Assembly: GCF_017349295.1 (NCBI RefSeq)
Contig: NZ_JAFMPK010000026.1
Span: 621-64,620, forward strand
DNA length: 64,000 bases
Origin: Myceligenerans salitolerans
Lineage (GTDB): Bacteria; Actinomycetota; Actinomycetes; Actinomycetales; Cellulomonadaceae
Direction of reading: 5' to 3'
The translations under genes were made by a program, and so were the position numbers. Every line of letters starts with the position of its first letter. Position 1 is the first letter of the stretch. The notes under the pieces were generated by a model. It had not been told where the DNA came from. It did no database searches and worked only from the letters and a program-made list of their open reading frames with translations. Positions 37 through 18,880 of the stretch are shown in pieces.

Positions 37-1020
37 TCAGCACCTCGGGGCACGCAGGTCGAGCATGCGCTCGGCGCTGCGCGCCGCATTGCCCAGCGAG
101 TCGAGCGGGTGCGGCGGTTCGGCCACCTGGGCGGCGTTGTCCTGCTCCCAGATGGGATGGTGTCGGCCGCTTCCCGCGAGCGCCCCGAGGAAGGCCTGGT
201 AGTCGATGTCACCCGCCCCGAACTCGACGATGCCGTAGCCGGACTCCGTCTCCGGCTCCGCGCGGCCGTCCTTGATGTGGAACAGGGGGTAGCGGTGCCG
301 GTTGGCGAGCACGTAGTCCACGGGCTCGAAGCCCGGGTACCGGTGTTTGCCGACGAAGGCCCAGTACACGTCCATCTCGAGGAAGACGTACCGCGGGTCG
401 GTGTGCTCCAGGAACACGTCGTAGAGCCGCACGTCGGGGCGGTCGGTGGCGAACCCGAACTCGCCGTCGTGGTTGTGCTGGTAGAACTTCAGGCCCCGTG
501 CGGCGGCGGCCTCGCCGAATCCGTTGAACTGCTCGGCAGCCGCGAGGTAGCCGTCCACGGTGCGGTCGCTCGTGGGTGCGTTGGCCGTGCCGAGGTGCGC
601 CATGCCGAGTGTCTGGGCGATGTCGAGCTCCGCCTCCATGTTCGCCGCGAAGTCCCCGATCCCGCGGTGCGCGCCGATGGCGGTCAGTCCGTTGTCGTCC
701 AGGAGCGTACGGATCTCCTCGGGGGTGATGGGCCCGGTGCCCTGGCTGTAGCCGGCGAACTCGATCTCCCGGTAACCCATCTCGGAGAGCCGCTCGAACA
801 CGGTGCGGAAGCCGAGGGACTGCACCTTGTCACGGATCGTGTAGAGCTGGATGCCCAGGTGCCCGGGCGGCACCAGCCTCCGGCCGTGGCCGCGGCCGGA
901 TGCCTGCGCCGCCGCCGCGGGCGCGGTGGTCGCGGCGGCGAGCGCGCCCGCGCCGATGGCGACGCTCGATGCCGCGAGCCGCATGAAGGTCCGACGCTTG
1001 ACATCAGCGGATGTGGTCAT
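37..1020 (-). CDS. Tat-exported sugar phosphate isomerase/epimerase-like TIM-barrel protein
   Basis: The protein has 327 residues. The N-terminus carries a twin-arginine signal (KRRTFMRLAASS) followed by an Ala-rich hydrophobic stretch, so a folded and probably metal-loaded protein is exported. The mature part is an AP-endonuclease-2/xylose-isomerase-like barrel. Likely metal and active-site segments are QHNHDGEFGF, LEMDVYWAF, FHIKDG and IWEQDN. The ATG at 1020 is chosen because the signal peptide starts there; the frame runs on upstream only as out-of-frame overlap with the next gene. It is the last gene of the leftward sugar operon, 23 bp after a cytoplasmic paralogue. Family members isomerise sugars or act on 3-keto-glycosides (family knowledge). 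The exact substrate is unknown; export suggests work on an extracellular keto-sugar, which is inference. Confidence 0.88.
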   Translation of the reverse strand: MTTSADVKRRTFMRLAASSVAIGAGALAAATTAPAAAAQASGRGHGRRLVPPGHLGIQLYTIRDKVQSLGFRTVFERLSEMGYREIEFAGYSQGTGPITPEEIRTLLDDNGLTAIGAHRGIGDFAANMEAELDIAQTLGMAHLGTANAPTSDRTVDGYLAAAEQFNGFGEAAAARGLKFYQHNHDGEFGFATDRPDVRLYDVFLEHTDPRYVFLEMDVYWAFVGKHRYPGFEPVDYVLANRHRYPLFHIKDGRAEPETESGYGIVEFGAGDIDYQAFLGALAGSGRHHPIWEQDNAAQVAEPPHPLDSLGNAARSAERMLDLRAPRC

Positions 1021-1043
1021 GAGGTGCTCCTTCGCTCGGGCGT

Positions 1044-2051
1044 CTATTCCGTGCTGCTGCTGAACGCCGCGTCGAAGGCGGCGTCGGGGGCGTCGAAGGC
1101 GAGGCGGCGCACCAGTTCGAGCGCCTCGGGAGCGCCGACGAGGCGGTCCATGCCCGCGTCCTCCCATTCCACGGAGATCGGGCCGTCGTAGCCGATCGTG
1201 TTGAGCATCCGGAAGGCGTCCTCCCAGGGCACGTCGCCGTGCCCGGTGGAGATGAAGTCCCAGCCGCGACGGGGGTCGGCCCACGGCAGGTGGGACCCGA
1301 GGCGGCCGTTGCGCCCGTTGCTCATGCGCTTCTTGGTGTCCTTGCAGTCCACGTGATAGATGCGGTCGCGGAAGTCCCACAGGAACGAGACGGGGTCCAG
1401 GTCCTGCCACACCATGTGCGACGGGTCCCAGTTGAGGCCGAACGCCTCGCGGTGCCCGATGGCTTCGAGGGCGGCGACGGTGGTCCAGTAGTCGTAGGCG
1501 ATCTCGCTGGGGTGCACCTCGTGCGCGAACCGCACGCCCACCTCGTCGAAGACATCGAGGATCGGGTTCCAGCGGTCCGCGAAGTCCTGGTAGCCGGCCT
1601 CGATCATGGCGGCCGAGGCCGGCGGGAACATGGCGACGTACTTCCAGATCGACGACCCGGTGAACCCGACGACGGTCTTCACGCCCAGCTTCGCGGCGAG
1701 CCGGGCGGTGCACTTCATCTCCTCCGCCGCGCGCTGCCGGACACCCTCGGGATCTCCGTCGCCCCACACGCGGTCGGAGAGGATGTCGCGGTGCCGCTGG
1801 TCGATGGGGTCGTCGCAGACGGCCTGTCCCTTGAGGTGGTTGCTGATCGCCCAGACCTTCAGCCCGTGGCGTTCCAGCAGCTCGAGCCGGCCGGCCACGT
1901 ACTCGTCGTCGTCCCATCGCCACGGGTCGAGGTGGTCGCCCCAGCAGGCCAGCTCCAGGCCGTCGTAGCCCCAGCCCGCGGCGAGCCCGGCCACCTCCTC
2001 CAGAGGCAGGTCGGCCCACTGGCCCGTGAACAGCGTGATCGGTCGTGTCAT
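1044..2051 (-). CDS. sugar phosphate isomerase/epimerase (xylose-isomerase-like TIM barrel)
   Basis: The protein has 335 residues, no signal peptide, and is cytoplasmic. It is a TIM-barrel protein of the xylose isomerase-like superfamily. Acidic and histidine segments expected to bind a divalent metal are visible: [30 protein letters not shown] and ISVEWED. The N-terminal half carries [16 protein letters not shown], typical of the family. An AGGAGGAAAG Shine-Dalgarno lies just before the ATG at 2051. It precedes the Tat-exported paralogue by 23 bp and follows the small secreted protein by 80 bp, so it is likely co-transcribed with both. Relatives act as sugar epimerases or isomerases, or as deglycosylation enzymes on 3-keto-glycosides. 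The position in this cluster favours a role after C3 oxidation of an imported sugar, which is inference. Confidence 0.9.
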
Positions 2052-2131
2052 CGTGCTTTCCTCCTGTTACGTGTCCTGCACGCGTCCCGCACGGGGCGCT
2101 CCGGCGTCGGCGGTTCGCCGTCGGTCTTCGG

Positions 2132-2722
2132 TCATGTCCTGCGCCTGCGGAGCACGGCGGCGGTCGTGATCACCCCGGCGACGACGAGCGCGCCCGCCGT
2201 CCAGCCGGCCACGCCCGGGCCTCGCACGGCCGTGCCGGTGGCCACGTCGGGTCGGCCGCCGGACGGGTCGGTCCCCGCCGTGCCGCCGGTGGCCGGGTCC
2301 GAGGAGGCCGTCGGCTCCGGTTCCGACGGTGCGGGCGCCGGTGGCGCCGCCACGTCGAGCTCCGTCTTCGCCGTCGCCTTCCTCGGTTCCTTCACGCGGG
2401 CCGTGACCGTCCAGTGCCCCTCGTCGAGCAGTGCGGTCTCCGAGCGGTACCAGCCGACGCCTTCCGACGCGGAGACGAGCGTGACCGGGCCGACTTCCTC
2501 CCCGGCGTCGGAGACCGCCCGCACCACCACGACGGCCGACTCCTCGACGGGATGTCCGTCACCCGCCCAGGTCACCGCCACGGAGAGGCCACCGGCCCCG
2601 TCCGTGCCGAGGTCGACGTCGATCGCGCCGCCGTGAGCGGCCACGGGAGCCGTGGCGGCGGGCCCGACGACGAGCCCGAGCGCGAGCCCGAGCGCCGCGC
2701 CGAGGCGTGTGAACCGTCGCAT
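2132..2722 (-). CDS. small secreted, C-terminally membrane-anchored protein
   Basis: The protein has 196 residues. It has a Sec signal (MRRFTRLGAALGLALGLVV, cleavage near APVAA-HGG) and one beta-rich domain of about 110 residues (roughly 32-130). A Pro/Thr/Ser/Glu-rich linker and a C-terminal membrane helix ending in RRRRT follow, a sortase-independent tail anchor topology. The His just after the cleavage site, the size and the position resemble CopC/YtkA-like secreted domains, but I cannot identify the metal ligands, so function is left open. The ATG at 2722 is preceded by GGAAGGAAC and fits the signal peptide; the reading frame opens earlier but encodes no signal there. A 13-bp inverted repeat lies in the leader at 2791-2830. 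It sits between the giant ThuA protein and two isomerases and may be a surface helper. Confidence 0.75.
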   Translation of the reverse strand: MRRFTRLGAALGLALGLVVGPAATAPVAAHGGAIDVDLGTDGAGGLSVAVTWAGDGHPVEESAVVVVRAVSDAGEEVGPVTLVSASEGVGWYRSETALLDEGHWTVTARVKEPRKATAKTELDVAAPPAPAPSEPEPTASSDPATGGTAGTDPSGGRPDVATGTAVRGPGVAGWTAGALVVAGVITTAAVLRRRRT

Positions 2723-2790
2723 GTCCGTTCCTTCCCCACTCCACATCGTCGTACTTCTCCGGCCCGGCGGGAGCCGCCGAGCGCCCCGGA

Positions 2791-2830
2791 CCTCGGCACG
2801 AGGCCGGAGCGCGTCCACCTCGTGCCGAGG
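2791..2830. other. perfect 13-bp inverted repeat in leader of the small secreted protein
   Basis: CCTCGGCACGAGG at 2791-2803 pairs with CCTCGTGCCGAGG at 2818-2830 across a 14-base loop. It lies about 70 bases upstream of the ATG at 2722 and downstream of the terminator-like hairpin at 2940-2971. It could be a second terminator hairpin or an operator for the three following genes. There is no U-tract. Confidence 0.6.
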
Positions 2831-2939
2831 CTGGGCCGGTGTCACCGACCCTGCCGCCGGGCCCCACCGCACCCCGTGACGACCCTGGGCCGAGGTCGCC
2901 GGCGGGGCGTCGAGCGCGATGGTGCCGACGGCGGTCGAC

Positions 2940-2971
2940 GGGGTGTGCACCGGTGAGCCGGTGCACACCCC
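2940..2971 (-). terminator. hairpin terminator after the giant ThuA gene
   Basis: A perfect 14-bp stem (GGGGTGTGCACCGG at 2940-2953, CCGGTGCACACCCC at 2958-2971) with a TGAG loop lies 7 bases past the stop codon at 2979. There is no T-run, which is normal for G+C-rich actinobacteria. It may end or attenuate the operon before the small secreted protein. Confidence 0.75.
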
Positions 2972-2978
2972 GGGTCTG

Positions 2979-5900
2979 TCAGTCGCACCTCTCCTCGACG
3001 GTCACGATCACCCGCGCCTTGCCGGACGGGCTGAGTTCCCAGTCCCCGGTCACGGTCAGGTCGGTGCGTGGCGCCGGGGAGGCGATCACGCGGTAGTCGC
3101 CCGGTGCGAGGTCGTCCAGGTCGCGCGGCTTGCCGCGAGGCGAGCCGTCGACCCAGCGGTGGACGACGTAGCTGCGGACGCCCGGCAGCTCCACCGGGTC
3201 GATCGATCCCCCGGCGTCACACGTCGCCGGAGTGACGACGACGTCCGGCGTCGCGGGGTCCGGGCACTCGGGTTCCTCGAGCGTCACGAAGAGCACCGCG
3301 AGCCCGTTGTCCCGGACCTTCCAGTCGCCCTCACCGACGAGGGCGTACCCCTCGGCGGGCCGGGCCGCGACCCGGTACTCCCCCGGGGCCAGGTCGTCCA
3401 GCTCGTACAGCCGGTCACCGGCCCCGCCGTCGGTCCACTCCCGCACCACGTAGGACCGCACGCCGGTGACCTCGGCCGGGACGAGCGCACCTCCCGTGAC
3501 GACCTCGGACCCGGACGTGTCGTACGAGCACGTCGGCTGCACGACGTCGACCGCGGGTGTCGCCTCGGTGAGCGGCGGCTCGGCGATGGTGAACTCGAGG
3601 GTCTCCCCGACGACGGTCTCGCCGTCCGCCGACGCCCGTACCTGCACGGTGTGGGTGCCGGGCTCCGAGATCTCCAGCGGCGCCGTGTACTCGGCCCAGC
3701 CACCGCCGTCGACGTCGACCTCCCGGTACACCTGGGCGCCGTCCGGGCCGCCCGTGGTCTCCACCGTCACGGTGACCGGCCCGAGCCACTGCCCCTCGGG
3801 CCCGTCCGGGTCGGCGGGCGAGATCGTGCCGGCCACCTCGAGCGGCGCGGCGGTGCCCGCCACCCGGAAGTGGTCGAACGACGCCGTGGCGGCCGACTGC
3901 TGGGAGGCGCCGAGCGCGTACAGCCCGACCCGCGCGTCCTCCAGGCCGTCGTGCGTGACGGACTCCGCGAACGGCGTCCAGTCCTCACCGTCCGCGCTGT
4001 ATTCGCCGGTGAAGGTCGACCCTTCCTTCGACAACCGCAGGTGCCACACGCCCGACGTGAGGTCGTTCACGTTCGGCTGCGGATCCTGTACGACGGCGTC
4101 GACCTCGCTGCGCAGTTCGAGGCGCTGCGCGACGGGGTCGCCCGCCGCGTTGTCGGTCACGAGGTCGAGCTTGACGTAGTTGTCGTCGTCGCCGTAGACG
4201 ATCAGGCCGGCCTGCTGGTACTGCTGGTCGAAGTCCGACCCGTCGACCCGTGTCTCGACGGTCCAGTCCTCGTCCGGCAGGGCCTGGACGACGATGTTCG
4301 GCGTGTCCGTGTTGCTGCCGGTGTAGATGTCGGTGGGGGTCGTGTCGATCTCCAGGGCGCCACCGGTCACCCGGTACCCCTCCGGATCCTCGCGCACGAC
4401 GTCCCAGCGGCACCCGTCGAGGGCGTCCCCGTCGAACTCGTCGTCGGGCCCGGGCGTCCCGGCCGTGTCGTCCGGGGTGATGTGGAACCAGTCGAACTGC
4501 GCGTCCACCACCTCCGCGGCCGAACCGGTGCCGGCGAGCGCGACGAGCCCGATCCGCGGGTCGTCGATGCCGGTGAGCGACTTCGTCTCCGGCATGGCCG
4601 TGAAGTCCACGCCGTCCGACGAGTACGACGCCGTCAGGTCCTCGCCGTCGCTGCTGGCCAGCCGCACGTACACCGTGTCCGGGTACGCCTCGCCGAGCGC
4701 CGCGGTGTTGGAGTCCCCGACCTCGTTCGGCGCGCCGTCCTCCTCACGGATGTACTGGAAGATGCGCGTGGCCGGGTCGGCGGGCGCCGAACGGCCCTGG
4801 ATCACCATCTTCGCGTAGTTGTCCGCGTCGCCGTAGATCAGCAGGCCGGCCTGCTGGTACTGCGCGTAGGCAGGGATCGTGACCTTGGCCGTCGCGGTGA
4901 AGGGTCCGTCGGGCAGGTCCTGCAGGACGAGGTTCGGCACGGTGACGTTGCCCGTCCCGTAGAAGTCCGTGGCGGTCGCCGGGACCGTCAGCAGGCCGTC
5001 GGAGACCCGGAGGTCCTGGTTGCGGTCGAGCACGGTCCAGCGCTCGGGGTCGAGCTCGTCACCGAGGAAGTCGTCCGACCTGCCGGACAGGCAGGGCGTC
5101 GGCTCCGGCACCGTGCCGGTGACCTCGACCATGACGTACTCGACGGCGTAGGCGCCGCCCTCGTCGGTGACGCGCACCTGGAGACGGTAGGTGCCCGGCT
5201 CGTCGTAGGTGTGCTCGAACGCCGGGGTGCCGTCGACGAACCCGTCACCGAGACCGGCGTCCCAGGCGTAGGTCAGGTCACCGGACCCGTCCGGGTCGGT
5301 GGCCTCGGCGGTCGCGGTCACGGTCAGCGGGGCGTCGCCCGAGACCGGGTCGACCGACAGCTCGACCCGAGGCCGCTCGTTGTCGGTGACACCGCGGCCG
5401 TCGATCTCCATCCAGTTGACGTTGATGCCGCCGGAGAGCAGCACGAAGTGCAGCGAGCCGGAGCCCGACGGCACATCGGTCAGCTCGGTCGCGACGTCGG
5501 TGTACTCCTGCCAGTCACCGGTGCCGGGGACCGTGACACGACCGATCTCCGGGCCGTCCGGCGCGTCCCAGCGCAGCGACACCTCGCCGCCGGCGCCCGC
5601 CGAGGCGGCACGCAGCGAGATCGCGTCGACGGACGCGAGGCTCACCGGTTCGTGGGCCCAGTAGTCGCCCGGCTCGATGAAGCCGATGTTCTGGCCTCCG
5701 CCGGCGCTGTCGCCCGTCTCCTCGATCTGGACGCCCGGGTCGCCCGCGCCGTCACCGATGCCGTCGACCCGGCCCGTGCCGGTGAAGAACTCCGACTGGA
5801 CCAGCTTCGGCTGCAGCACCTGCAGGTCGGTCGTGGTCAGCGGGACGCCGGCCGCGCCGCCGTCGTCGGTGTAGAACGCCTCGATGACCCAGAAGATGTT

Positions 5901-8585: not shown

Positions 8586-8591
8586 CAAGAA

Positions 8592-8597
8592 CTCCTT
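8592..8597 (-). promoter_or_regulatory. ribosome binding site that fixes the start of the giant ThuA protein
   Basis: AAGGAG on the minus strand stands six bases before a GTG at 8585. The codons upstream of this GTG (back to an ATG at 8660) encode a polar, Asp/Arg-rich stretch that would bury the signal peptide, so the downstream GTG is preferred. Confidence 0.65.
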
Positions 8598-8727
8598 CGT
8601 CGTCGAACGGTCCTGTCGCGCTCCGGGGTCCCGATCCGTCGGCCCTGACGGCATCGTCACCGGTGTGGTCGTGTCTGTCGGGCACCGTGCGTGCCCGCTC
8701 CTCCTCTCGTCGGACGGGTCGGAGCCG

Positions 8728-9906: not shown

Positions 9907-9960
9907 GAGTGTGGTCCTTCCGTCGTCGGGACCGGCGGCCTTCGCGGCAGCCGGGAGGGC

Positions 9961-9989
9961 GGTGGCGAGGCTCTGGCCGCCTCGCCACC
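9961..9989 (-). terminator. intra-operon hairpin after the sugar-binding protein gene
   Basis: A perfect 11-bp stem (GGTGGCGAGGC at 9961-9971, GCCTCGCCACC at 9979-9989) with a seven-base loop lies 18 bases past the stop of the binding-protein gene and before the oxidoreductase gene. Such hairpins commonly stabilise the binding-protein message or partly terminate the operon. Which applies here is not known. Confidence 0.65.
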
Positions 9990-10006
9990 GTCGGTGGCGT
10001 CCGTCG

Positions 10007-11065
10007 TCAGGAACGGAAGCCGAGGTCCATGTACTGGTCGACGTTGTCGGCCGTCACCACCGGCGCGTGGAGCTGGATGGTGCGCGGCACGCCCGCGGAG
10101 ACCAGGTCGGACATGCTCTTGTCCTGGGCGACCAGGCGGGCCAGCTTGATGCCGTCGGCCGCCTGGGTGGACGGGTAGACGACGGTCGCCTGCAGGACGG
10201 AGTCGCCGGCCTGGATGTGCTCCATCACGTCGAGCGAGCCGGCGCCGCCGACCATGAAGAACTCGTCACGGCCGGCGTTCTCGATGGCCGCCAGGACGCC
10301 GACGCCCTGGTCGTCGTCGTGGTTCCAGATGGCGTCGATCTCGGGCTCCGCCTGGAGGAGGTTCGACGTCGCCGTCTCCCCGCCCTGGATGGTGAAGTCG
10401 GCGGCCACCTGGGTGGAGACCTCCAGGCCGCAGTCGCTCAGGGCGTCGGCGAAGCCCTGGGACCGGTCCTGCGTCAGCGGGAGGTTGGCGATGCCCTGGA
10501 TCTCGGCGACGACGGCGTCGGGCTGGTCGCCGAGCTGCTCGCAGATGTAGGTGCCGGCCGAGACGCCCATCCCGTAGTTGTCGCCGAGGATGGTGGCACG
10601 GGAGGCGAACGGGCTGGACAGCTCACGGTCCACGTTGATGACCGGGATCCCGGCCTCCATCGCGTCGAGGGCGACCTCGGTCAGCGCGTCGCCGTCGAAC
10701 GGGAGGAGCACGATGGCGTCGACGCCGTCGTTGATGAACTGCTCGATGTGGCTGATCTGCATGTTGACGTCGTTGGTGGCCTCGGCCTGGCGCAGTTCGA
10801 CGTCCTCGTACTGCTCGGCGGTGTCGAGCGCGGCCTGGGTGATGGCACCCATCCAGCCGTGGTCGGCCGCCGGGGCGGAGAACCCGATCGTCACGGTCTC
10901 TCCGGGCTCGTCGTTGGCGGTGCCGCCGGAGCCGTCGTCCTGGCTCACGGAGTCGTTCTCCTCCTCGGGCGGTTCGTTGCTGACACAACCGGCGACCAGC
11001 AGGGCGGAGGCGGCCAGCGCGGCGGGGATGCCCAGCATCCGGCGGAGGTTCTTCCTAGCGGACAT
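10007..11065 (-). CDS. ABC sugar transporter substrate-binding lipoprotein (RbsB-like)
   Basis: The protein has 352 residues. It has a lipoprotein signal peptide (MSARKNLRRM, hydrophobic core, lipobox LLVAGC), an acidic linker, then a periplasmic-binding-protein type 1 fold of the ribose/galactose class (VTIGFSAPAADHGWMG, followed by HIEQFINDGVDAIVLLP and VINVDREL). It would be anchored outside the membrane and deliver a sugar to the permease and ATPase encoded upstream. GAGGAAG precedes the ATG. The gene order ATPase-permease-binding protein with 79 bp before this gene indicates one operon. The acidic Asp/Asn segment (about residues 28-50) after the lipid-anchored Cys is a flexible tether. 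The ligand is not predictable; the cluster suggests a disaccharide or glycoside product. Confidence 0.93.
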   Translation of the reverse strand: MSARKNLRRMLGIPAALAASALLVAGCVSNEPPEEENDSVSQDDGSGGTANDEPGETVTIGFSAPAADHGWMGAITQAALDTAEQYEDVELRQAEATNDVNMQISHIEQFINDGVDAIVLLPFDGDALTEVALDAMEAGIPVINVDRELSSPFASRATILGDNYGMGVSAGTYICEQLGDQPDAVVAEIQGIANLPLTQDRSQGFADALSDCGLEVSTQVAADFTIQGGETATSNLLQAEPEIDAIWNHDDDQGVGVLAAIENAGRDEFFMVGGAGSLDVMEHIQAGDSVLQATVVYPSTQAADGIKLARLVAQDKSMSDLVSAGVPRTIQLHAPVVTADNVDQYMDLGFRS

Positions 11066-11144
11066 GAGATCTTCCTCGATTCGGTCCGGTACTTGCGGGG
11101 GGGATGAGGTCAGGTTGCTGTGGGAGTGGGCCCCGTGGGGCCGG

Positions 11145-12173
11145 TCAGGTCGATTTCGACCGGTTGGCGAAACGCTGCTGCAGAAGGACGGCCGCCACGA
11201 TGATGGCGCCCTTGGCGACGAGCTGCGCCGAGGTCGACATGTTGTTGATGGTGAACACGTTGGTCAGCACGGTGAAGATGAGCACGCCCACCACGGTGCC
11301 GACGATCGTGCCGCGGCCGCCGATGAGCAGGGTGCCGCCGACGACGACGGCGGCGATGGCCTCGAGCTCCCAGAGCATGCCGTGGGTGGAGGTGCCGGCG
11401 GTGGTACGGCCGAGCATCATCGCGCCGGCGATCCCGGCGGTCAGGCCGGCCAGGCCGTAGATGTACAGGGTGTGGCGCTGCACCTTGATGCCGGCGAGGC
11501 GCGACGCCTCCGCGTTGCCGCCGATCGCGACGGTCCGCCGCCCGAACGTGGTCCGGTTGAGCAGGAACCAGCCGGCCACCGACACGGCCGCGAAGATCCA
11601 CACGAGGATCGGCACCCCGAGCGGCTCCAGCCGGAAGAACTCGATGAAGGCGTCGCTCTGGACCCGCTGGGTCTGCCGGTTCGAGATCATCTCCGCCAGC
11701 CCGCGGGCGCTCGCGAGCATCGCGAGCGTGGTGATGAACGGAACGACTCGCCCGTAGGCGATGATCGCCCCGTTCACGAGGCCCGCGACCGTACCGACGG
11801 CCATGGCCGTGAAGACCATCACCACCCAGTGGAGGTCGTCGGCCATGGCCTGCGTCGCCCACGTGGTGGCCCAGACGGTCGTCAGGCCCATGACGGAGCC
11901 GACCGAGAGGTCGATGCCTCCGGAGGTGATGACGAACGTCATCCCGATCGCGAGGACACCGATGACGGACGCCAGCCGCAGGACGACCATGAGGTTGTCG
12001 ATGCTGGCGAACCGTTCACCGCCCGTGATGACGCCCACCACGCAGATCAGCGCCAGGGCGAGCACGAGCCCGACGTTGCGGCCGGCGGGGCCGGAGAGCA
12101 GCGACGGGAGCCGGGTCCTGCCCTCCTTCTTGGTCTCCATGTCGGCCGGCGGGACGGCCGTGGGTTCGGTCAC
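11145..12173 (-). CDS. ABC sugar transporter permease (RbsC-like)
   Basis: The protein has 342 residues with about eight to ten hydrophobic segments, of the branched-chain/ribose permease superfamily. Family signatures visible are GGIDLSVGSVMGL and the EAA-like GGNAEASRLAGIKV, plus the GGTLLIGGRGTIVGTVVG stretch. It starts with GTG at 12173 inside the stop of the ATPase gene (4-base overlap), so translation is coupled. It forms the transmembrane channel for the ATPase (12170-13690) and binding lipoprotein (10007-11065). Confidence 0.94.
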   Translation of the reverse strand: MTEPTAVPPADMETKKEGRTRLPSLLSGPAGRNVGLVLALALICVVGVITGGERFASIDNLMVVLRLASVIGVLAIGMTFVITSGGIDLSVGSVMGLTTVWATTWATQAMADDLHWVVMVFTAMAVGTVAGLVNGAIIAYGRVVPFITTLAMLASARGLAEMISNRQTQRVQSDAFIEFFRLEPLGVPILVWIFAAVSVAGWFLLNRTTFGRRTVAIGGNAEASRLAGIKVQRHTLYIYGLAGLTAGIAGAMMLGRTTAGTSTHGMLWELEAIAAVVVGGTLLIGGRGTIVGTVVGVLIFTVLTNVFTINNMSTSAQLVAKGAIIVAAVLLQQRFANRSKST

Positions 12174-13690
12174 GCGCTTGTTCCTTCCATGACGAGGTCG
12201 AGCACCTGGTGCTCGTCGATCTCCTGCGCGGGTGCGCTGTGCACGACCCGTCCGTCGGACACGACCAGAACCTGGTCCGCCAGTCCCAGCACCTCGGGGA
12301 TCTCGCTCGAGACGACGAGGACGGCGGTCCCCGCGTCGGCAAGGCGACGGACGAGTGCGTAGATCTCCGACCGCGCGCCGACGTCGACGCCCCGGGTGGG
12401 CTCGTCGAGCAGCAGCACGTCGCAGCCGTGCACGAGCCAGCGGGCGAGCATCGCCTTCTGCTGGTTGCCTCCCGACAACGTACGGATCGAGCGCTCGACG
12501 TCGCGGGGGCGGAGGTCCAGAGCGGCGGCCTGCTCCTGCGAGGCCTTCCTCTCCGCACGCTCGTCGAGCCAGCCGGCCCGCGCCATGCGGGCGAAGCTGG
12601 CGAGGGTCACGTTGCGGTAGACGGGTTCGTCGAGCACCAGGCCCTGGCTCTTGCGCTCCTCCGGGGCGAGGCCGATCCCGGCGGAGACCGCTGCGGCCAC
12701 GGATCCGCGGCGCAGGGTTCGCCCGTCGAGGGTGACCGTCCCCGCCGTGGCGCGGCGCGCGCCGTAGACCGTCTCGAGGATCTCCGAGCGGCCGGAACCC
12801 ACGAGTCCGGCCAGGCCGACGATCTCGCCGGCCCGGACGGTCAGCGAGACGTCGCGGAAGGTGTCCCCGAGACCGAGCCCGTCCACCTCCAGCCGGACCG
12901 GGGCGTCCTGAGGGACACCTGGCCGCTCCGGGAACGCGTACTCGACGTCCTTACCGGTCATGAGCTTGATGAGCTCGTCCGTGGACGTCGAGGCGACCGG
13001 AAGGTTCCGGCCCACGGTCATGCCGTCCTTGAGCACCGTGATGCGGTCGCCGATGCGGCGGATCTCCTCGAGGCGGTGGGAGATGTAGATGATCGCGATG
13101 CCCTGGGCGGTGAGCTCCTCGACCACTCGGAAGAGGTTGTCCACCTCGCCGGAGTCCAGGACCGCCGACGGTTCGTCCATGACGATCACCCGCGCGTCGC
13201 GGGACAGGGCGCGGGCCATCGAGACGACCTGCTTGCCGGCCGCCGACAGCGCACCGACCTCCTGGTGGGGACCGATCTCCGGGTGCCCGAGTCGCTCCAT
13301 CAGGCGGCGGGTACGGGCCGCGGCCTGTCGCCGCTGGGTGAAGCCCGCCGACGCGAGCTCGTGCCCGAGGTAGATGTTCTCGGCGACGGTGAGCCCGTCG
13401 ACGACGTCGAGCTCCTGGTACATCGTCGCGATGCCGTGCTCGAGGGCCGCGACCGGGTGCGGGATCCGGATCTGCTCGCCGTCCAGCCGGATCGTGCCGG
13501 CGGTGGGCTGGTGGGCACCGGCGAGGACCTTGATGAGGGTCGACTTCCCGGCCCCGTTCTGACCGAGGAGGCAGTGCACCTCGCCGGGCACCACGTCGAG
13601 GTCGACGCCGTCGAGCGCCTTGGCGCCCGGGAAGTGCTTGACGATGCCTTGCATCTCCAGCAGCGGTGCTGTTGGGTCTCCAGTGACCAT
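12170..13690 (-). CDS. ABC sugar transporter duplicated ATPase (RbsA/MglA-like)
   Basis: The protein has 506 residues with two fused ATP-binding halves, the usual length for this family. The N-half has Walker A GQNGAGKST, an atypical signature (LSAAGKQVVSMARAL) and Walker B VIVMDEPSA. The C-half has a degenerate P-loop (GLVGSGRSEI), signature LSGGNQQKAMLARWL and LLLDEPTRG. It is the first gene of the leftward sugar operon. The ATG at 13690 lies six bases from a perfect -10 box (TAGGGT), so the message is probably leaderless. The operator-like inverted repeat at 13709-13734 overlaps this promoter. It powers uptake of the sugar feeding the oxidoreductase and isomerases. Confidence 0.95.
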   Translation of the reverse strand: MVTGDPTAPLLEMQGIVKHFPGAKALDGVDLDVVPGEVHCLLGQNGAGKSTLIKVLAGAHQPTAGTIRLDGEQIRIPHPVAALEHGIATMYQELDVVDGLTVAENIYLGHELASAGFTQRRQAAARTRRLMERLGHPEIGPHQEVGALSAAGKQVVSMARALSRDARVIVMDEPSAVLDSGEVDNLFRVVEELTAQGIAIIYISHRLEEIRRIGDRITVLKDGMTVGRNLPVASTSTDELIKLMTGKDVEYAFPERPGVPQDAPVRLEVDGLGLGDTFRDVSLTVRAGEIVGLAGLVGSGRSEILETVYGARRATAGTVTLDGRTLRRGSVAAAVSAGIGLAPEERKSQGLVLDEPVYRNVTLASFARMARAGWLDERAERKASQEQAAALDLRPRDVERSIRTLSGGNQQKAMLARWLVHGCDVLLLDEPTRGVDVGARSEIYALVRRLADAGTAVLVVSSEIPEVLGLADQVLVVSDGRVVHSAPAQEIDEHQVLDLVMEGTSA

Positions 13691-13696
13691 ACGCCG

Positions 13697-13726
13697 ACCC
13701 TAGGGGCGACTTCTGCGCACTGTCAA
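13697..13726 (-). promoter_or_regulatory. promoter of the ABC sugar operon, leaderless
   Basis: Reading leftwards, TTGACA (13726-13721), an 18-base spacer and TAGGGT (13702-13697) form a near-consensus housekeeping promoter. Six bases separate the -10 box from the ATG at 13690, so transcription should start at or beside the start codon. Confidence 0.8.
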
Positions 13727-13734
13727 TCATAAGT
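13709..13734. promoter_or_regulatory. operator candidate, copy 1: ACTTCTG-N12-CATAAGT
   Basis: This inverted repeat (arms 13709-13715 and 13728-13734, 12-base spacer) encloses the -35 box of the ABC operon. The same repeat with the same spacer encloses the -35 box of the DUF1080 gene at 18863-18888. Arm centres are about two helical turns apart, as for a dimeric repressor. The divergent ROK regulator gene is the nearest candidate for the binding protein. Confidence 0.7.
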
Positions 13735-13744
13735 TCCGGTACTT
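13731..13744. promoter_or_regulatory. 14-bp near-perfect palindrome beside operator copy 1
   Basis: AAGTTCCGGTACTT is palindromic except for one mismatched pair (positions 5 and 10). It shares its left end with the ACTTCTG/CATAAGT repeat and lies just upstream of the ABC-operon -35 box, on the side facing the ROK gene. It may be a second regulator site. This is a weaker call because only one copy exists. Confidence 0.45.
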
Positions 13745-13821
13745 TGGGAACGTTACCTTCCCGTGATCGGGATCAGCAGACGACAAAGTGGCGACGAAAG
13801 GTGGCATGGTTCACTGTGCTC

Positions 13822-15018
13822 ATGGAAGGGCTGGCGAAATTCCCGCCGCGACCGACGGGAGCGGGTGACATGTTCCAACTGTTCCGGAACGGCGCACCGC
13901 GGACGCGTGCCTCACTCGTTGCCGAGACCGGGCAGTCACGGTCGACCGTCGCCGCGCGCATCGACGCGCTCCGGTCCGTCGGGCTGTTGGCACCCGCGGG
14001 TGAGGCGACCAGTACCGGAGGGCGGCCGCCGTCGACCTTCGCCTTCGACCCCGGGTCACGGATCGCGCTGGGCGTCGACCTGGGGGCGACGCACGCCCGC
14101 ATCGCCGTCACGGATCTCGCCGCCGAGCCGCTCGCACAGGTCGACGAGCCGCTCGCGATCGCGGACGGCCCCGACCGCGTGCTGACCTGGGTCGCGGAGA
14201 CCGGCAAGAAGCTCGTCACGCAGGCCGGGCGTCACATGGACGAGCTCGCCGGCGTCGGCATCGGACTGCCCGGCCCCGTCGACCACGGCACGGGCCGGCC
14301 CGTCAACCCGCCGATCATGCCGGGCTGGGGCGGTGCCGACGTCCCCGCCGAGCTGTACGCGCGGCTCGGGGCCCCGGTGATGGTGGACAACGACGTCAAC
14401 ATCATGGCGCTCGGCGAGCACCGCACGATGACGCCCGAGGCGGACGACCTGCTGTTCGTCAAGGTGGCGACCGGCATCGGGGCCGGCGTCATCATGGACG
14501 GCCACCTGCGCCGGGGAGCGCAGGGCGCCGCCGGTGACCTCGGGCACGTCACCGTACCCGGCGCGGGCGACATCCCCTGCCGGTGCGGCAACAGCGGCTG
14601 CCTCGAGGCGGTCGCCGGGGGCGCCGCCATCGTGACCCGGCTGCGCGACTCGGGCGCGGCCGTGGAGACCACCCAGGACATCGTCGACCTCGTCCGGTCC
14701 GGAGACGTCGCCGCGGGACAGGCGGTCCGCCAGGCAGGGCGCGACATCGGCAGCGTGCTGGCCGCGTCCGTCAGCCTGCTGAACCCCGCGCGGATCGTCG
14801 TCGGCGGCATCCTCGCCGGAGCCGGCGAGCATCTCATGGCCGGGATCCGGGAGGTCGTCTACCAGCGGTCGCTCCCACTGGCCACGCGAGACCTGCGGAT
14901 CACGCCGTCCGAGGCGGGCGCGCAGGCCGGCGTCGTCGGAGCCGCGACCCTTGTCATCGAGCAGTACCTCGCGCCATCGTCGGTCGACACGCTCATCGCC
15001 GCCAAGGAGGTCTCGTGA
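13822..15018 (+). CDS. ROK-family transcriptional regulator
   Basis: The protein has 398 residues from the ATG at 13822. Its N-terminal winged helix is about residues 17-60 (LFRNGAPRTRASLVAETGQS, then STVAARIDALRSVGLL). The sugar-kinase-like ROK domain follows, with DLGATHARIAV, GIGLPGPVD, DNDVN, the zinc motif CRCGNSGCLE and GHVTVPG. In-frame alternatives are GTG 13801 and ATG 13870 (the latter with GGGAG upstream); homologous HTH spacing favours 13822 but does not prove it. It is transcribed divergently from the ABC sugar operon and overlaps the ThuA gene by three bases, so it is the obvious regulator of both. ROK repressors usually respond to a sugar or sugar phosphate. It probably binds the inverted repeats at 13709-13734 and 18863-18888, which is inference. 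Confidence 0.9.
   Translation: MEGLAKFPPRPTGAGDMFQLFRNGAPRTRASLVAETGQSRSTVAARIDALRSVGLLAPAGEATSTGGRPPSTFAFDPGSRIALGVDLGATHARIAVTDLAAEPLAQVDEPLAIADGPDRVLTWVAETGKKLVTQAGRHMDELAGVGIGLPGPVDHGTGRPVNPPIMPGWGGADVPAELYARLGAPVMVDNDVNIMALGEHRTMTPEADDLLFVKVATGIGAGVIMDGHLRRGAQGAAGDLGHVTVPGAGDIPCRCGNSGCLEAVAGGAAIVTRLRDSGAAVETTQDIVDLVRSGDVAAGQAVRQAGRDIGSVLAASVSLLNPARIVVGGILAGAGEHLMAGIREVVYQRSLPLATRDLRITPSEAGAQAGVVGAATLVIEQYLAPSSVDTLIAAKEVS
15004..15010 (+). promoter_or_regulatory. ribosome binding site for the overlapping ThuA gene
   Basis: AAGGAGG, four bases before a GTG at 15015 that overlaps the TGA of the ROK gene. This fixes the start and implies translational coupling. Confidence 0.75.
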
Positions 15019-15686
15019 CCACGCGTACCGCACTCGTCGTCCGGGGAGGGTGGGACGGGCACGACCCCGTGGAAACCACCGACCTGTTCGTCCCGGTCCT
15101 CGAGGACGCCGGATTCGACGTCACCGTCGAGGACTCGCTCGAGATCTACGCCGACGAGGAGGCGATGGCCAGGACCGACCTCGTCGTCCAGTCCTGGACG
15201 ATGGGCGACATCCTCGTCGAGGAGATGCACGGTCTGCGGATCGCGGTGGAGAACGGCACCGGCCTCGCCGGCTGGCACGGCGGCATCCTCGACGCCTTCC
15301 GCAACGCCACCGACTTCCAGCACATCGTCGGCGGCCAGTTCGTCGCCCACCCCGGCGACTTCGTCGACCACGAGATCGTCGTCCGTCCCGAGCGCGCCGG
15401 CCACCCGGTCGTCGAGGGCCTCGAGTCGCCGATCCGGCTGCACACCGAGCAGTACTGGGTGCAGCACGACCCGGCGTGCGACGTCCTCATGACGACCACG
15501 CACCGGCCCGGGCCGGACACGCCCTGGCACGAGCCCGTCACCGTCCCCGTGACGTGGACCAGGAACTGGGGCAAGGGGCGGGTCTTCGCCTGCACCGTCG
15601 GCCACTCGACCGCCGAGCTCGAGCATCCGTCGATCCGCCGGATCATCACGCGCGGGCTCCTCTGGGCGGCGCGTCCGGCACCGTAG
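15015..15686 (+). CDS. cytoplasmic ThuA-like (trehalose utilisation) protein
   Basis: The protein has 223 residues, one ThuA-like domain with a class-I glutamine-amidotransferase-like fold, and no signal peptide. Typical segments are ALVVRGGWDGHDPVETT at the start, the GLAGWHGGILDAF turn, GGQFVAHPGDF and the terminal TRNWGKGRVFACTVGHS. It starts with GTG inside the ROK stop codon and ends before a strong bidirectional terminator. ThuA proteins take part in catabolism of 3-keto-trehalose and similar keto-glycosides (known from Agrobacterium/Sinorhizobium thuAB). Here it is the intracellular counterpart of the ThuA domain in the giant secreted protein, suggesting the same chemistry is run on both sides of the membrane (inference). 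Confidence 0.88.
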   Translation: MTTRTALVVRGGWDGHDPVETTDLFVPVLEDAGFDVTVEDSLEIYADEEAMARTDLVVQSWTMGDILVEEMHGLRIAVENGTGLAGWHGGILDAFRNATDFQHIVGGQFVAHPGDFVDHEIVVRPERAGHPVVEGLESPIRLHTEQYWVQHDPACDVLMTTTHRPGPDTPWHEPVTVPVTWTRNWGKGRVFACTVGHSTAELEHPSIRRIITRGLLWAARPAP

Positions 15687-15709
15687 CCGCTGCCGGCACC
15701 GCACGACGC

Positions 15710-15744
15710 GATGACGCCCGGGACGGCACGTCCCGGGCGTCATC
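15710..15744. terminator. bidirectional terminator between convergent ThuA and DUF1080 genes
   Basis: A perfect 16-bp stem (GATGACGCCCGGGACG at 15710-15725 with its complement at 15729-15744) and a three-base loop sit between two convergent stop codons (15686 and 15768). Thirty-two paired bases around a tight loop make it the strongest hairpin in the window. Confidence 0.88.
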
Positions 15745-15767
15745 TCGGCTCTGTCAGGCGTCAGGCG

Positions 15768-18700
15768 TCAGCCGGCGTCCGACAGGTCCTTCACCCGCAC
15801 GTCGCGGTAGTAGATGGTCTCCCCACCCCCGTGGTTCTGGAGGCCCACGTACCCCTGAGCGAGGTCACGAGCGGGATCGGTGCTGACGAAGTCGTTCACC
15901 AGCACCCCGTTGAGGAACACCGTGATGGTCTGGCCGACGACGCGGATCTCGTAGGAGTTCCACGACCCCGGCGGGTTCAGCGCCTGGTCGACGGCGGCCT
16001 GGTCCGCACCCTGGAAGGTGTAGATCGACCCGGTCGTGCGGTCGGGCTCGTCGCTGGCGTCGATCTGGATCTCGTAGCCCTCGTTCACCGCGACCCACGG
16101 GTCGTTGCCGGGGTCGGGGAATCCGACGAAGACACCGCCGTTGTCGTCCTTCACCAGCTTCCAGTCGAGCTTGAGGCTGTACTCCCCCAGCTCCTCACCG
16201 GTGTGCCAGAGCAGGCCCATGCCCCCCGTGCTGCGGATCGAGCAGTCGCTCTGCCTGCCGAACGACCCGGCACCCGCCAGGCGCCAGCCGTCCAGCGACT
16301 CCAGGGTGCCGTCGAACAGGGCCTCGTACCCCTGCTTGTACCGTTCCGGGCGGCAGATGTCCGTGTGCCGGCCGACCGTGAGGACGTCGAGGTTGACGTT
16401 GCCGTCGTCCTCCTCGTCGTAACGCAGCGTGATGGTGTTGGTGCCTCGCTCCAGCGGCAGCTCGCGGGTCGCCGTCGCCCAGGTCTTCCAGTCACCGGTC
16501 GACTCGAGCGCCCATGGCTCGAGCTCTTCGCCGTTGACCAGTACCGAGACCGTCTTGGTGCCTTCGAACGGGTTGGGCCCGTTCGAGTAGCGCAGACTCA
16601 CCGGCCACGTGCCGCCGTGACGAACGTCCGTGGTGAACGTCGCCGACGCGCCCACCTCCCCGAGCCCGTCCACGAACCCGGAACCGGAATAGCCGCTGTG
16701 CTCGGTGTCGACGTTCGCCGACCCCCGGAGCGTCGCCTCCTCCGCCTCGTGGTAGCCACGCTCGGCTGGCGCCCGGTAGCCCGGGACGGCGTTCAGCGTG
16801 TACCAGGCCTCCGTGTTCCACAGCTCCTGGCCCTCGGCGTCGGTGAAGGGGCGCGGGCTGCGCAGGTGCACCACACGTCCCGGTTCGAGGCCGTCGACGG
16901 TGAGCGACACCTTCGTGCCGTTCCGCGACACGCGGGCGTCCGAGACGAACAGCGGTCGCTCGTCGACCTTCGGCCCGCCGTAGGCGCGGGTGGGCACGTA
17001 GCGCCAGTGGTCCATGCGGAACGCCTGGTTCGGGTCCTCGGCGATCTTCGCCACCGTCTCCTCGGACAGCGGCTCGGTGTACTCGATCGTGAAGCCCTTC
17101 CTGGTGGCGCGCATCTCGGTCATGTCGAACGTGCCCTCGCCGTTCGGCATCAGCTTCTGCAGGCCGTACCGGAGCTTGCCCGGCTCGCTCCAGTTGCCGC
17201 CCTCACCGATGCCGCCGACGTACAACGCTCCGTCGGGCCCGACGACGGTGCGGTTCACACCGGCCTCCAGCCCGGCAGAGTGCCGGAACACGGCACCCTG
17301 GTACTCGCCGTCGACCTTCTCGAGGAAGCCGCGCTGCAGGCCGCCGTAGGTGACGTCGCCGAACACGAGCTGGCCCGCGTAGGGTCCCTCCTCGAGGCGC
17401 ACCGGGGAACTCGGCGAGTTGCCGATCTCGTTCTGCGGCACCCACAGTGCGGGGGCGCTCACCGGCTGCTCGTCGAACGGACCCGCGGGGTTGGTGAAGT
17501 GGTTGAAGAACTTGCCCTCCTCGATGTGGACGAGCTTCGAGCTGGGCAGCCAGGCACCCTGGTTGTCCATCACGAACAGTTCCCCGTCCGGCCCCTCGAC
17601 CATGCCGTTGGGCGTCCGCAGGCCGCCGGCCACGTACTCGACCTCGCCGGTCTCCCGGTCGACCCGCACGGTGGTACCGCGGTTCGGCGCGGGCTGCGGG
17701 TCGGTGGTGGCACCGCCGTTGTTGATGGCGACCGACAGGTTGACGTAGAAGTAGTCCTCGTCGTGCAGCAGGCCGAAGGCGAACTCGTGGAAGTTCTCGC
17801 CGAAGGGCCACTGCGCCACCGTACGGTGCTCGTCGTAGAAGCCGTCCCCGTCCGGGTCCGTCAGCTCCGTCAGGCGGTCACGCTCGGAGACGTAGATCGA
17901 GTCGCCGATCACCGCCACACCCATCGGGTTGAACAGGTCCGTGGCGACCTTCTCGACGGTGACCTGGTCCCGCGACGTCTCGCCGGTCACGTTGTCCAGC
18001 AGGAAGACCTCGCCGGGTTCCGGGTCCTCGACCCAGCCACCGGGGCTGACCGAACCCGACGTGGCCACGACGAGGCGGTCGTCGGCGGTCCAGTCGAGCG
18101 CCGCGACCATCGGTTCGAAGCCCTCCGGGCGCAGGTCCGTGAGCGTGTAACCGGGGTGGACGGAGTCCAGGCGCATACCGTCGCCCGCCGTGTCGTCCTG
18201 CCCCTCGCAGTACTTGGTGCCCGGCGCGGTCACGCGCACCACGCCCGCCTCCGTGCTGAGCGCGGTCGAGGGCACGACCTCGAAGCCGGTGGCCCCCGGC
18301 GGGCGCCACTCGAGCTTGAGGACCTGGTCGCCGGTGTTCTCGAAGTACTCCACCCGCAGGTCGTGGTAGCCGGAGGTGAGAGCGACCGAGCCGTCGGCGG
18401 GCTCCGCCCCGTGCAGGCCGTCGTGGTCGACGACAACGCTGTCGTCGATGACCAGGCGCGAGCCGTCGTCGCTCGTGAGCCGGAACTCGTAGGTACCGTC
18501 AGCCGGCACCGACAGGTTCGCCAGGGCGTGGGCGATGAAGCGGTCGCCCATCCCGAAGTCCGCCTCGGTGGCGTAGTCGATGGTCGGTTTGAGCTGGTCC
18601 ACGTTCGGCGTCTGGCCCGAGCGGAGCGTGCACAGCTCGCTGATGTCCCGCGCCACGTCATAGGTTCTCAGGGTGACGCCGGGCTCCTGCGGGGGCAGGT

Positions 18701-18815
18701 CGTCGGCGGCCGCGGCGACGGGGACGGCCCCCGCGAGCACGGCGCCTGTCGTTGCGGTGGCGGCGACGAGCGCGACCGCCTGTCTGGTACGGGTAGTGGA
18801 TCCTCGCGAGCGCAT
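15768..18815 (-). CDS. secreted PA14 / beta-propeller / CBM6 / DUF1080 (3-keto-disaccharide hydrolase-like) protein
   Basis: The protein has 1,015 residues. It has a Sec signal (TRQAVALVAATATTGAVLAGA). Domains, approximate: PA14 48-188 (LTSDDGSRLVIDDSVV); soluble dehydrogenase-like beta-propeller 212-618 (FNPMGVAVIGDSIYVSERD, LRTPNGMVEGPDGELFVMDN); CBM6 685-815; DUF1080 823-1010 (LFDGTLESLDGWRL, DDNGGVFVGFPDPG, SWNSYEIRVVGQTITVFLNG). DUF1080 proteins are lectin-fold enzymes now linked to hydrolysis of 3-keto-disaccharides (family knowledge). GAGGAGG precedes the ATG. It has its own promoter with the same operator-like repeat as the ABC operon, so it is very likely co-regulated with it. It would act outside the cell on oxidised oligosaccharides; PA14 and CBM6 should bind the glycan. 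No cell-wall anchor is seen. Confidence 0.9.
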   Translation of the reverse strand: MRSRGSTTRTRQAVALVAATATTGAVLAGAVPVAAAADDLPPQEPGVTLRTYDVARDISELCTLRSGQTPNVDQLKPTIDYATEADFGMGDRFIAHALANLSVPADGTYEFRLTSDDGSRLVIDDSVVVDHDGLHGAEPADGSVALTSGYHDLRVEYFENTGDQVLKLEWRPPGATGFEVVPSTALSTEAGVVRVTAPGTKYCEGQDDTAGDGMRLDSVHPGYTLTDLRPEGFEPMVAALDWTADDRLVVATSGSVSPGGWVEDPEPGEVFLLDNVTGETSRDQVTVEKVATDLFNPMGVAVIGDSIYVSERDRLTELTDPDGDGFYDEHRTVAQWPFGENFHEFAFGLLHDEDYFYVNLSVAINNGGATTDPQPAPNRGTTVRVDRETGEVEYVAGGLRTPNGMVEGPDGELFVMDNQGAWLPSSKLVHIEEGKFFNHFTNPAGPFDEQPVSAPALWVPQNEIGNSPSSPVRLEEGPYAGQLVFGDVTYGGLQRGFLEKVDGEYQGAVFRHSAGLEAGVNRTVVGPDGALYVGGIGEGGNWSEPGKLRYGLQKLMPNGEGTFDMTEMRATRKGFTIEYTEPLSEETVAKIAEDPNQAFRMDHWRYVPTRAYGGPKVDERPLFVSDARVSRNGTKVSLTVDGLEPGRVVHLRSPRPFTDAEGQELWNTEAWYTLNAVPGYRAPAERGYHEAEEATLRGSANVDTEHSGYSGSGFVDGLGEVGASATFTTDVRHGGTWPVSLRYSNGPNPFEGTKTVSVLVNGEELEPWALESTGDWKTWATATRELPLERGTNTITLRYDEEDDGNVNLDVLTVGRHTDICRPERYKQGYEALFDGTLESLDGWRLAGAGSFGRQSDCSIRSTGGMGLLWHTGEELGEYSLKLDWKLVKDDNGGVFVGFPDPGNDPWVAVNEGYEIQIDASDEPDRTTGSIYTFQGADQAAVDQALNPPGSWNSYEIRVVGQTITVFLNGVLVNDFVSTDPARDLAQGYVGLQNHGGGETIYYRDVRVKDLSDAG

Positions 18816-18851
18816 GCGCCCTCCTCGGTCGGCTTTGACCTTTCGGAGCCG

Positions 18852-18880
18852 AACCTATGAGGACTTCTGTCGATCGTCAA
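18852..18880 (-). promoter_or_regulatory. promoter of the DUF1080 gene
   Basis: Reading leftwards, TTGACG (18880-18875), a 17-base spacer and TAGGTT (18857-18852) form a good housekeeping promoter. The leader is about 30-40 bases and includes a GAGGAGG ribosome site. Confidence 0.78.

Follow-up and report, generated by a model that had tools for sequence, protein, structure and literature searches.

Bacteria that degrade glycosides through 3-keto intermediates provide the closest described counterparts of an eleven-gene island at positions 37-18815 of the 64,000-nucleotide stretch of Myceligenerans salitolerans DNA analysed here, called the window below. In Bacillus smithii, levoglucosan is degraded by LgdA, LgdB1, LgdB2 and LgdC through oxidation, elimination, hydration and reduction (PMC7676230). 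As in that pathway, the island places enzymes of Gfo/Idh/MocA type (Gfo) and TIM-barrel type (sugar phosphate isomerase) beside an ABC sugar importer, and its Gfo is LgdA-like; however, B. smithii has two Gfo-type and two TIM-barrel-type enzymes with the importer, whereas the island has one Gfo, one exported TIM barrel, a secreted ThuA, DUF1080 and propellers. The Agrobacterium glycoside operon (PMC10628242) also resembles it by combining the TIM-barrel eliminase AtOGE, the hydratase AtHYD and a Gfo reductase, but the first oxidase there is the flavoenzyme GlycDH and no secreted fusion proteins are described in the sections covered. In Caulobacter, oxidation by LacABC outside the cell and the hydrolysis of 3'-ketolactose proposed for a DUF1080 member are followed by transporter, epimerase and reductase genes (PMC9007349), where BT2157 is also cited as a 3-ketotrehalose hydrolase and a DUF1080-bearing endo-xanthanase/lichenase is reported too. 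The order of events is like that proposed below, although the Caulobacter case is Gram-negative, with LacABC as oxidase and a single-domain DUF1080 protein.

Disaccharide oxidation outside the cytoplasm is likewise carried out by the Bacteroides periplasmic glycoside 3-dehydrogenase BT2158 (PMC11300592). That oxidase is an exported Gfo-type enzyme, whereas the island Gfo has no signal. In the rhizobial trehalose genes thuAB, ThuA adjoins a Gfo enzyme and an ABC importer, an arrangement close to an inside version found in relatives of the island; the window differs in that most of its set is secreted and its importer is of the CUT2 type. The soluble pyrroloquinoline quinone (PQQ) glucose and aldose sugar dehydrogenases (1c9u, 2ism, 3das) share their fold with both secreted propellers of the island, but the latter are fused to ThuA or DUF1080, and the propeller of the larger protein (the giant) has a Cys-Cys-His motif and keeps the PQQ residues partly.

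We tentatively propose, somewhat short of even confidence, that the island encodes an outside-in route of 3-keto-glycoside degradation. The propellers of two secreted multidomain proteins would oxidise a ring hydroxyl of the terminal sugar, taken as C3, while the CBM6 and CBM35 domains would hold these proteins on the glycan. Judging from their families, ThuA, DUF1080 or the exported TIM barrel (Tat-TIM) would then break the labile glycosidic bond, by hydrolysis or beta-elimination. CUT2 systems carry monosaccharides, and the importer would take up a product of that size, a 3-keto-hexose or a 2-hydroxy-3-keto-glycal. Inside the cell, a second TIM barrel (TIM2) might hydrate the glycal and the Gfo reduce the 3-keto sugar to an ordinary hexose, as their homology suggests, and the ROK regulator, by its position, would control the island. 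Gene identities, conservation, fusions and co-occurrence are established, and the closest solved enzymes appear to fit the proposed steps. These steps are known singly, partly as periplasmic routes of Gram-negatives, and the outside-then-inside layout with fused giants looks new: no description of it in actinobacteria, and no paper on ThuA with a PQQ-dependent sugar dehydrogenase, was found in the open-licence literature searched, most subscription journals lying outside that search.

Gene content of the island

The genes, identified from open frames and Pfam matches above cut-off, and their main parts are as follows.

37-1020, minus strand: Tat-TIM, AP_endonuc_2 TIM barrel (PF01261, 51 bits), candidate secreted 3-keto-glycoside beta-eliminase
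1044-2051, minus strand: TIM2, cytosolic AP_endonuc_2 TIM barrel, candidate 2-hydroxy-3-keto-glucal hydratase (PDB matches 2zds, 8ro4)
2132-2722, minus strand: small secreted protein without Pfam family, hydrophobic C-terminal stretch
2979-8660, minus strand: giant, secreted, 1893 residues, with ThuA, glucose/sorbosone dehydrogenase-type (GSDH) propeller, PKD, CBM6, PKD and two DUF1349/GH43_C2 domains (Pfam) and a hydrophobic N-terminal stretch
6426-7733, minus strand: GSDH propeller of the giant (PF07995, 123 bits)
7350-7358, minus strand: Cys-Cys-His motif of the giant's propeller, whose His coincides with the catalytic one in soluble glucose dehydrogenase
7773-8405, minus strand: ThuA domain of the giant (PF06283, 282 bits, Pfam cut-off 33.4; residues 86-296)
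8728-9906, minus strand: Gfo, cytosolic, levoglucosan-dehydrogenase-like oxidoreductase (NF052479, 362 bits; PDB 4h3v, 6a3f)
10007-13690, minus strand: importer overall, CUT2 type (Pfam)
10007-11065, minus strand: substrate-binding lipoprotein (SBP), Peripla_BP_4, CUT2 class (PF13407, 145 bits; lipobox by eye)
11145-12173, minus strand: ABC permease, BPD_transp_2 (PF02653, 126 bits), 4-bp overlap with the ATPase gene
12170-13690, minus strand: ABC ATPase with two ATP-binding cassettes (PF00005 in two stretches), AraG/YtfR-like but under the cut-offs of those models
13744-15018, plus strand: ROK family regulator (PF00480, 203 bits); start uncertain, 13816 or 13822 also possible
15015-15686, plus strand: ThuAs, small signal-less ThuA protein (PF06283, 158 bits, above the same cut-off), 4-bp overlap with the ROK gene
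15707-15747, no strand: hairpin in the gap where the ThuAs and DUF1080 genes converge, which might terminate both (folding; 19-nt arms 95% complementary, -38.6 kcal/mol and z near -6 for either strand)
15768-18815, minus strand: secreted protein with PA14, sugar-dehydrogenase-type propeller, CBM35 and DUF1080 (Pfam)
15789-16331, minus strand: DUF1080/3keto-disac_hyd domain, 3-keto-disaccharide hydrolase family (PF06439, 134 bits, Pfam cut-off 26.8; residues 829-1009)

Leftward, the importer is followed by Gfo, the giant, the small secreted protein, TIM2 and Tat-TIM; ROK and ThuAs form a rightward pair, to which the DUF1080 gene is convergent. Every gene class named in the initial annotation was confirmed by an open frame whose Pfam match exceeds the cut-off, although that annotation had missed the small secreted protein and the PA14, second propeller and CBM35 of the DUF1080 protein. 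Its single leftward set stands as a gene order and not as a proven transcript, because strong hairpins lie between genes at 2939-2972 and 9960-9990; these are possible terminators or processing sites that would split the set, and treating the whole of it as one transcript calls for caution. To the left of the window, the contig (C21) extends for 620 bp, of which positions 576-620 are all N, and the island can be followed no farther than this edge.

Location was called from hydropathy and from inspection by eye of the N-terminal stretches. These suggest export for the giant, Tat-TIM, the small protein and the DUF1080 protein, and an inside location for Gfo, TIM2 and ThuAs.

Secreted propellers and their partner enzymes

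The AlphaFold2 (AF2) model of the giant's propeller, with a predicted local distance difference test score (pLDDT) of 86, gave PQQ glucose dehydrogenase 1c9u as top PDB match (E 2.6e-20), followed by further sugar dehydrogenases, among them the PQQ-containing S. coelicolor entry 3das; the Hedgehog-interacting protein was matched as well. The propeller of the DUF1080 protein (model pLDDT 88) falls in the same sugar-dehydrogenase group with weaker matches than the giant's, headed by the glucose dehydrogenases 7cdy (E 1.6e-10) and 2ism (E 5.9e-10), with paraoxonase-like propellers lower in the list. The models of both propellers have the PQQ sugar dehydrogenase fold, which is also that of the Hedgehog-interacting protein. 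Cys-Cys-His was invariant in 28 of 28 aligned homologues of the giant's propeller, and a motif search recovered it in 30 of 31 sequences, the exception being a shorter match in one relative (L073); its His aligns with a His of 1c9u that we take to be catalytic. By our reading of the alignment, the counterparts of His144, Arg228 and Asn229 of the PQQ site are kept; the roles of these residues, as of Lys377, Arg406 and Arg408 considered below, are presumed. A pqqC model had matches in 2 of 148 genomes of the class, 1 of them above cut-off. Haem-linked electron transfer within the giants was rejected, as neither secreted protein has a CxxCH motif.

Tat-TIM carries the twin-arginine motif KRRTFM, recognised by eye, and the twin-arginine pair is present in all 6 orthologues listed. 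Its PDB matches are 8tcd/8tcs (85 bits) and, weakly, 8bvk (37 bits), the 3-keto-O-glucoside beta-eliminase AtOGE (PMC10628242). In the alignment with 8tcd, the HNH, MDVYW-like and HIKD stretches are matched, and residues of Tat-TIM would presumably map to His132/His134/Asp163/His189 of AtOGE. The structures 8tcd-8tct presumably come from the 2024 work on non-classical glycosidases, and the function of 8tcd is likewise assumed. The name isomerase given earlier to the exported protein is probably a misnomer. TIM2 matches 2zds with 570 bits, an entry named putative DNA-binding protein that we take to be SCO6571; literature searches with the names of the S. coelicolor genes yielded no functional data. 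It also matches 2-hydroxy-3-keto-glucal hydratase 8ro4, presumably AtHYD, with 126 bits over residues 18-333 of 335, and HPxE, DPSH and EWE are common to both. This near full-length homology and the conserved motifs place TIM2, at sequence level, among the hydratases, and it has no hydrophobic N-terminal stretch. Relatives of Tat-TIM at E 1e-30 were found in 54 of 296 class genomes, and relatives of TIM2 at E 1e-90 in 39 of 296 genomes of the phylum.

The Gfo score on the levoglucosan dehydrogenase model lies below the curated cut-off of 650. Among solved structures, it matches 4h3v (634 bits; title without function), 6a3f (298 bits), called a putative dehydrogenase in the structure table and taken by us to be a levoglucosan dehydrogenase, and scyllo-inositol dehydrogenase (208 bits). 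The BT_2158_fam model gave 53 bits. LgdA is faster at reducing 3-keto-levoglucosan than at oxidising levoglucosan (PMC7676230). The Pfam scan of ten island proteins found one Gfo, so the two-Gfo feature of the levoglucosan pathway is missing, and a search of the own genome for a second Gfo, using that of a relative (L076) as query, gave 50 bits at best. Two Gfo enzymes in one locus are not universal in that pathway, since LgdC was not found nearby in P. phenanthrenivorans and others, according to the sections covered of PMC10066097. Matches to Gfo at E 1e-40 or better were found in 58 of 148 class genomes, and matches of at least 396 bits at 46 places in 40 genomes. Taken together, the closest solved relatives (8ro4, 8tcd, weakly 8bvk, and levoglucosan dehydrogenase) lend support, by homology, to the initial idea of a 3-keto-glycoside-type system whose enzymes are divided into an outside and an inside set.

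Gene content and module swaps in relatives

We also looked at the island in relatives. The named loci are the best 80 of 593 stretches matching Gfo, not a random sample, and Isoptericola scores highest among them. Clustering used crude gene calls over 79 named loci and the window (L115 has no calls and the Gfo of L106 remained unclustered). Clusters were found for Gfo (79 loci), TIM2 (61), permease (54), SBP (54), ATPase (53) and ROK (52), and this core recurs across many genera of Actinomycetes. The grouping is more than chance, because the set recurs in many genera and the only DUF1080 match of the own genome lies inside the island. The idea had been made to depend on whether the genes are scattered in relatives: the core is not, while the secreted modules (propeller, ThuA, DUF1080, Tat-TIM) are mixed and matched beside it and are more variable.

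GSDH, ThuA and DUF1080 stand on one chain in 12 genes of relatives: 8 as GSDH-CBM6-ThuA-DUF1080, 2 as ThuA-GSDH-CBM6-DUF1080 and 2 (1 + 1) without CBM6. The ThuA-GSDH-CBM6-DUF1349 order of the window's giant occurs in 6 genes, window included, and in 4 other loci (L052, L055, L069, L105) a GSDH gene adjoins a ThuA-DUF1080 gene. The 80 named loci contain 30 GSDH places, and 25 of them have at least one of ThuA, DUF1080 and Tat-TIM within 6 kb, Tat-TIM being the sole module at 4 of these 25. The remaining 5 places (L040, L041, L061, L071, L081) are less than 6 kb from a locus end, and L040 and L041 hold another giant with ThuA in the same locus; places near locus ends were set aside only if no module was seen, which gives 25/25 evaluable places and 25/30 overall. 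Of the 54 full-length loci, 22 have GSDH, and 20 of these also show a module; of the 32 without GSDH, 7 do so, 2 of the 7 (L107, L109) through weak matches to a signal-less TIM barrel. Small ThuA genes that match ThuAs are left out of this count.

The own genome holds a second giant, of 1915 residues, on contig C33 (L036:3789-18973), in which ThuA is fused to a galactose-oxidase-like kelch propeller (PDB 9g8h, 151 bits), so that ThuA is paired with a different oxidase type. It adjoins CopC/CopD, DUF1775, an aldehyde dehydrogenase and an ABC set with Peripla_BP_4 and BPD_transp_2.

The counts of importers and second Gfo enzymes, and the tree, cover 79 loci and the window. A second Gfo (Gfo2) was found in 12 of these 80 loci and a CUT2 importer in 55, with an overlap of 0. 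The GSDH/giant cluster (28 loci) and the secreted-ThuA cluster (2 more) go with CUT2 in 30/30 and with Gfo2 in 0/12, the absence of importer and propeller from the Gfo2 loci holding for the stretch fetched and not for the rest of those genomes. One divergent GSDH gene, in L096, escaped the clustering; it also adjoins a CUT2 importer. A cytosolic cleavage candidate is present in 11 of the 12 Gfo2 loci, either a small ThuA (6: L053, L057, L070, L076, L090, L092) or a signal-less TIM barrel (5: L091, L107, L109, L110, L111), and neither was found in L102. At least 6 of the 12 have an SBP_bac_1/8-type importer (L053, L057, L070, L076, L110, L111); in L057 and L076, the call comes from a scan of the binding protein, and their permeases cluster with those of L053. 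Among the remaining six, which were scanned in part, L107 has a major facilitator superfamily (MFS) gene and L092 an amino-acid permease gene. Fisher's test of importer against Gfo2 gave p = 9e-8 with kinship ignored. On the Gfo tree, CUT2, Gfo2 and small ThuA change at least 8 times each, and GSDH 14 times.

As CUT2 and secreted propellers are missing from the 12 Gfo2 loci, division of labour is favoured over duplication, and points to oxidation and cleavage outside with hydration and reduction inside. If a propeller stands in for Gfo2 and a secreted module for the cytosolic cleaver, gene content would make Gfo and TIM2 the shared downstream half, for hydration and reduction. The cytosolic ThuA kept in the window may serve an inside side route.

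The small secreted protein of the island clusters in 5 loci (the window and L038-L041) and might assist the giant, as a partner or by carrying its electrons. In L049, L052, L058, L059, L080, L088 and others, an ebo-like cluster lies downstream of the sugar genes; it comprises an EboA domain, an SCO3242/EboC-type prenyltransferase, TatD-like and inositol-phosphate-synthase-like genes, present in 14-20 loci depending on the gene, with one representative of each named by model.

Alternatives to an outside-in route

Several observations weigh against the outside-in route. The sugar oxidation known for the propeller fold is at C1, not C3; the counterparts of Lys377, Arg406 and Arg408 are not clearly kept in the giant's propeller; a model search of the own genome did not find pqqC; and no electron route from the propeller was found. 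Levoglucosan dehydrogenase, the best characterised relative of the Gfo, is an oxidising first enzyme. Importer and TIM2 occur without any of the modules searched for in 14 of the 54 full-length loci. Six loci with small ThuA (window, L038, L039, L042, L045, L083) have CUT2 instead of Gfo2, against a clean split. Moreover, supported branches of the tree yield 6 independent pairs for CUT2 against Gfo2. Of these pairs, 1-3 are informative, all in the expected direction, and the sign test for their exclusion yields p 0.25-1 from these few events; with so few informative pairs, the exclusion is without exception here yet not statistically secured.

The neighbours of Tat-TIM add to this side. In the genomes common to the Tat-TIM scan and the 148-genome Gfo scan, 28 Tat-TIM places (at least 145 bits) lie within 20 kb of Gfo in 14 cases and farther along the same contig in 2, while 12 are on another contig or in a genome without Gfo, so that Tat-TIM is not tied to the core. 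In 40 regions that we picked among the matches of the Tat-TIM scan, holding 42 copies, GSDH is within 6 kb of 24 and absent from that range in 18, ThuA or DUF1080 is within 12 kb of 19, and a core gene within 12 kb of only 13; 5 copies have none of these nearby. The propeller is therefore a more regular neighbour of Tat-TIM than the core is, and often both are missing from its vicinity.

We consider it unlikely, though a serious alternative, that the propellers are no C3 oxidase at all, that keto glycosides are made elsewhere, and that the secreted proteins bind and cleave them, leaving the inside half unchanged. The own genome offers such a source on contig C27 (L220:9364-16152), with a Gluconate_2-dh3 subunit (twin-arginine by eye), a GMC oxidoreductase and a COX2/cytochrome c and COX1 pair, which tells against oxidation by the propellers; other organisms could be a source as well. 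This arrangement suggests an extracytoplasmic flavin dehydrogenase served by a terminal oxidase of its own. The genes resemble the subunits of LacABC-like glycoside dehydrogenases, of which the Caulobacter case (PMC9007349) is an example, and their product could make 3-keto sugars outside, so that the propellers need not. The search for GMC and Gluconate_2-dh3 covered the own genome, where 4 further GMC_oxred_N matches were found. The partial PQQ residues and the failure to find pqqC favour this explanation too. However, the GMC set is unlinked to the island, and the propellers are fused to ThuA or DUF1080 and keep Cys-Cys-His in all 28 sequences.

Less probable is an intracellular pathway for an anhydrosugar of levoglucosan type or a small glycoside, in which the CUT2 system imports, Gfo oxidises C3, TIM2 eliminates and hydrates and the cytosolic ThuA helps, while the secreted giants serve another purpose. 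The Gfo scores on the levoglucosan dehydrogenase model and with 6a3f speak for it, as do the 14 full-length loci with importer and TIM2 and no module. LgdB2 of Bacillus smithii is partly bifunctional (PMC7676230), and the neighbourhoods of LgdA hold ABC importers and ROK-type regulators (PMC10066097). Against it stand the curated cut-off, which the Gfo score does not reach, and the lack of a second Gfo, and it leaves unexplained both Tat-TIM and the pairing of the propeller with CUT2 rather than Gfo2. Plain levoglucosan catabolism was rejected as a full account, as it would also leave the secreted proteins without a role.

The initial annotation had supposed a complete C3-oxidation and cleavage chemistry in both compartments, which now seems improbable. 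Secreted and cytosolic ThuA are both in the island, the Gfo could oxidise inside, and small ThuA occurs with a CUT2 importer in the five other loci listed above. Nevertheless, in the 80 loci Gfo2 belongs to the inside version and CUT2 to the outside one, with no overlap, the 12 Gfo2 loci lack a CUT2 importer and a secreted propeller within the stretch fetched, and the island has no second Gfo. Cyclitol catabolism, with Gfo as inositol dehydrogenase and TIM2 as inosose dehydratase, shares the ketone-then-elimination chemistry and the scyllo-inositol dehydrogenase match, but was rejected as very improbable, as IolG (107 bits, cut-off 355) and IolE (44 bits, cut-off 290) are far under their cut-offs and below the levoglucosan dehydrogenase and glucal hydratase scores of Gfo and TIM2, and none of 5 genome matches to IolD exceeds its cut-off.

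Returning to the outside-in route, the island might represent, more doubtfully, a modular actinobacterial redox-glycosidase. A quinoprotein-type propeller oxidase and ThuA and/or DUF1080 on one chain would oxidise and cut glycans outside in one complex, with keto-monosaccharides alone being imported; its active site would be the unusual Cys-Cys-His one, possibly with a cofactor other than PQQ, and a mirror form inside relatives would use the second Gfo as oxidase, often with another importer class. If true, there would be a cofactor puzzle, since the search for pqqC found none in a genome that encodes a PQQ-type fold, and the natural module swaps in relatives would make the compartment logic testable gene by gene. 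A role would also be proposed for ThuA domains, for which we know of no established mechanism, and many soil actinobacteria, including Streptomyces, would join the bacteria that break glycosides by oxidation and not by classical hydrolysis.

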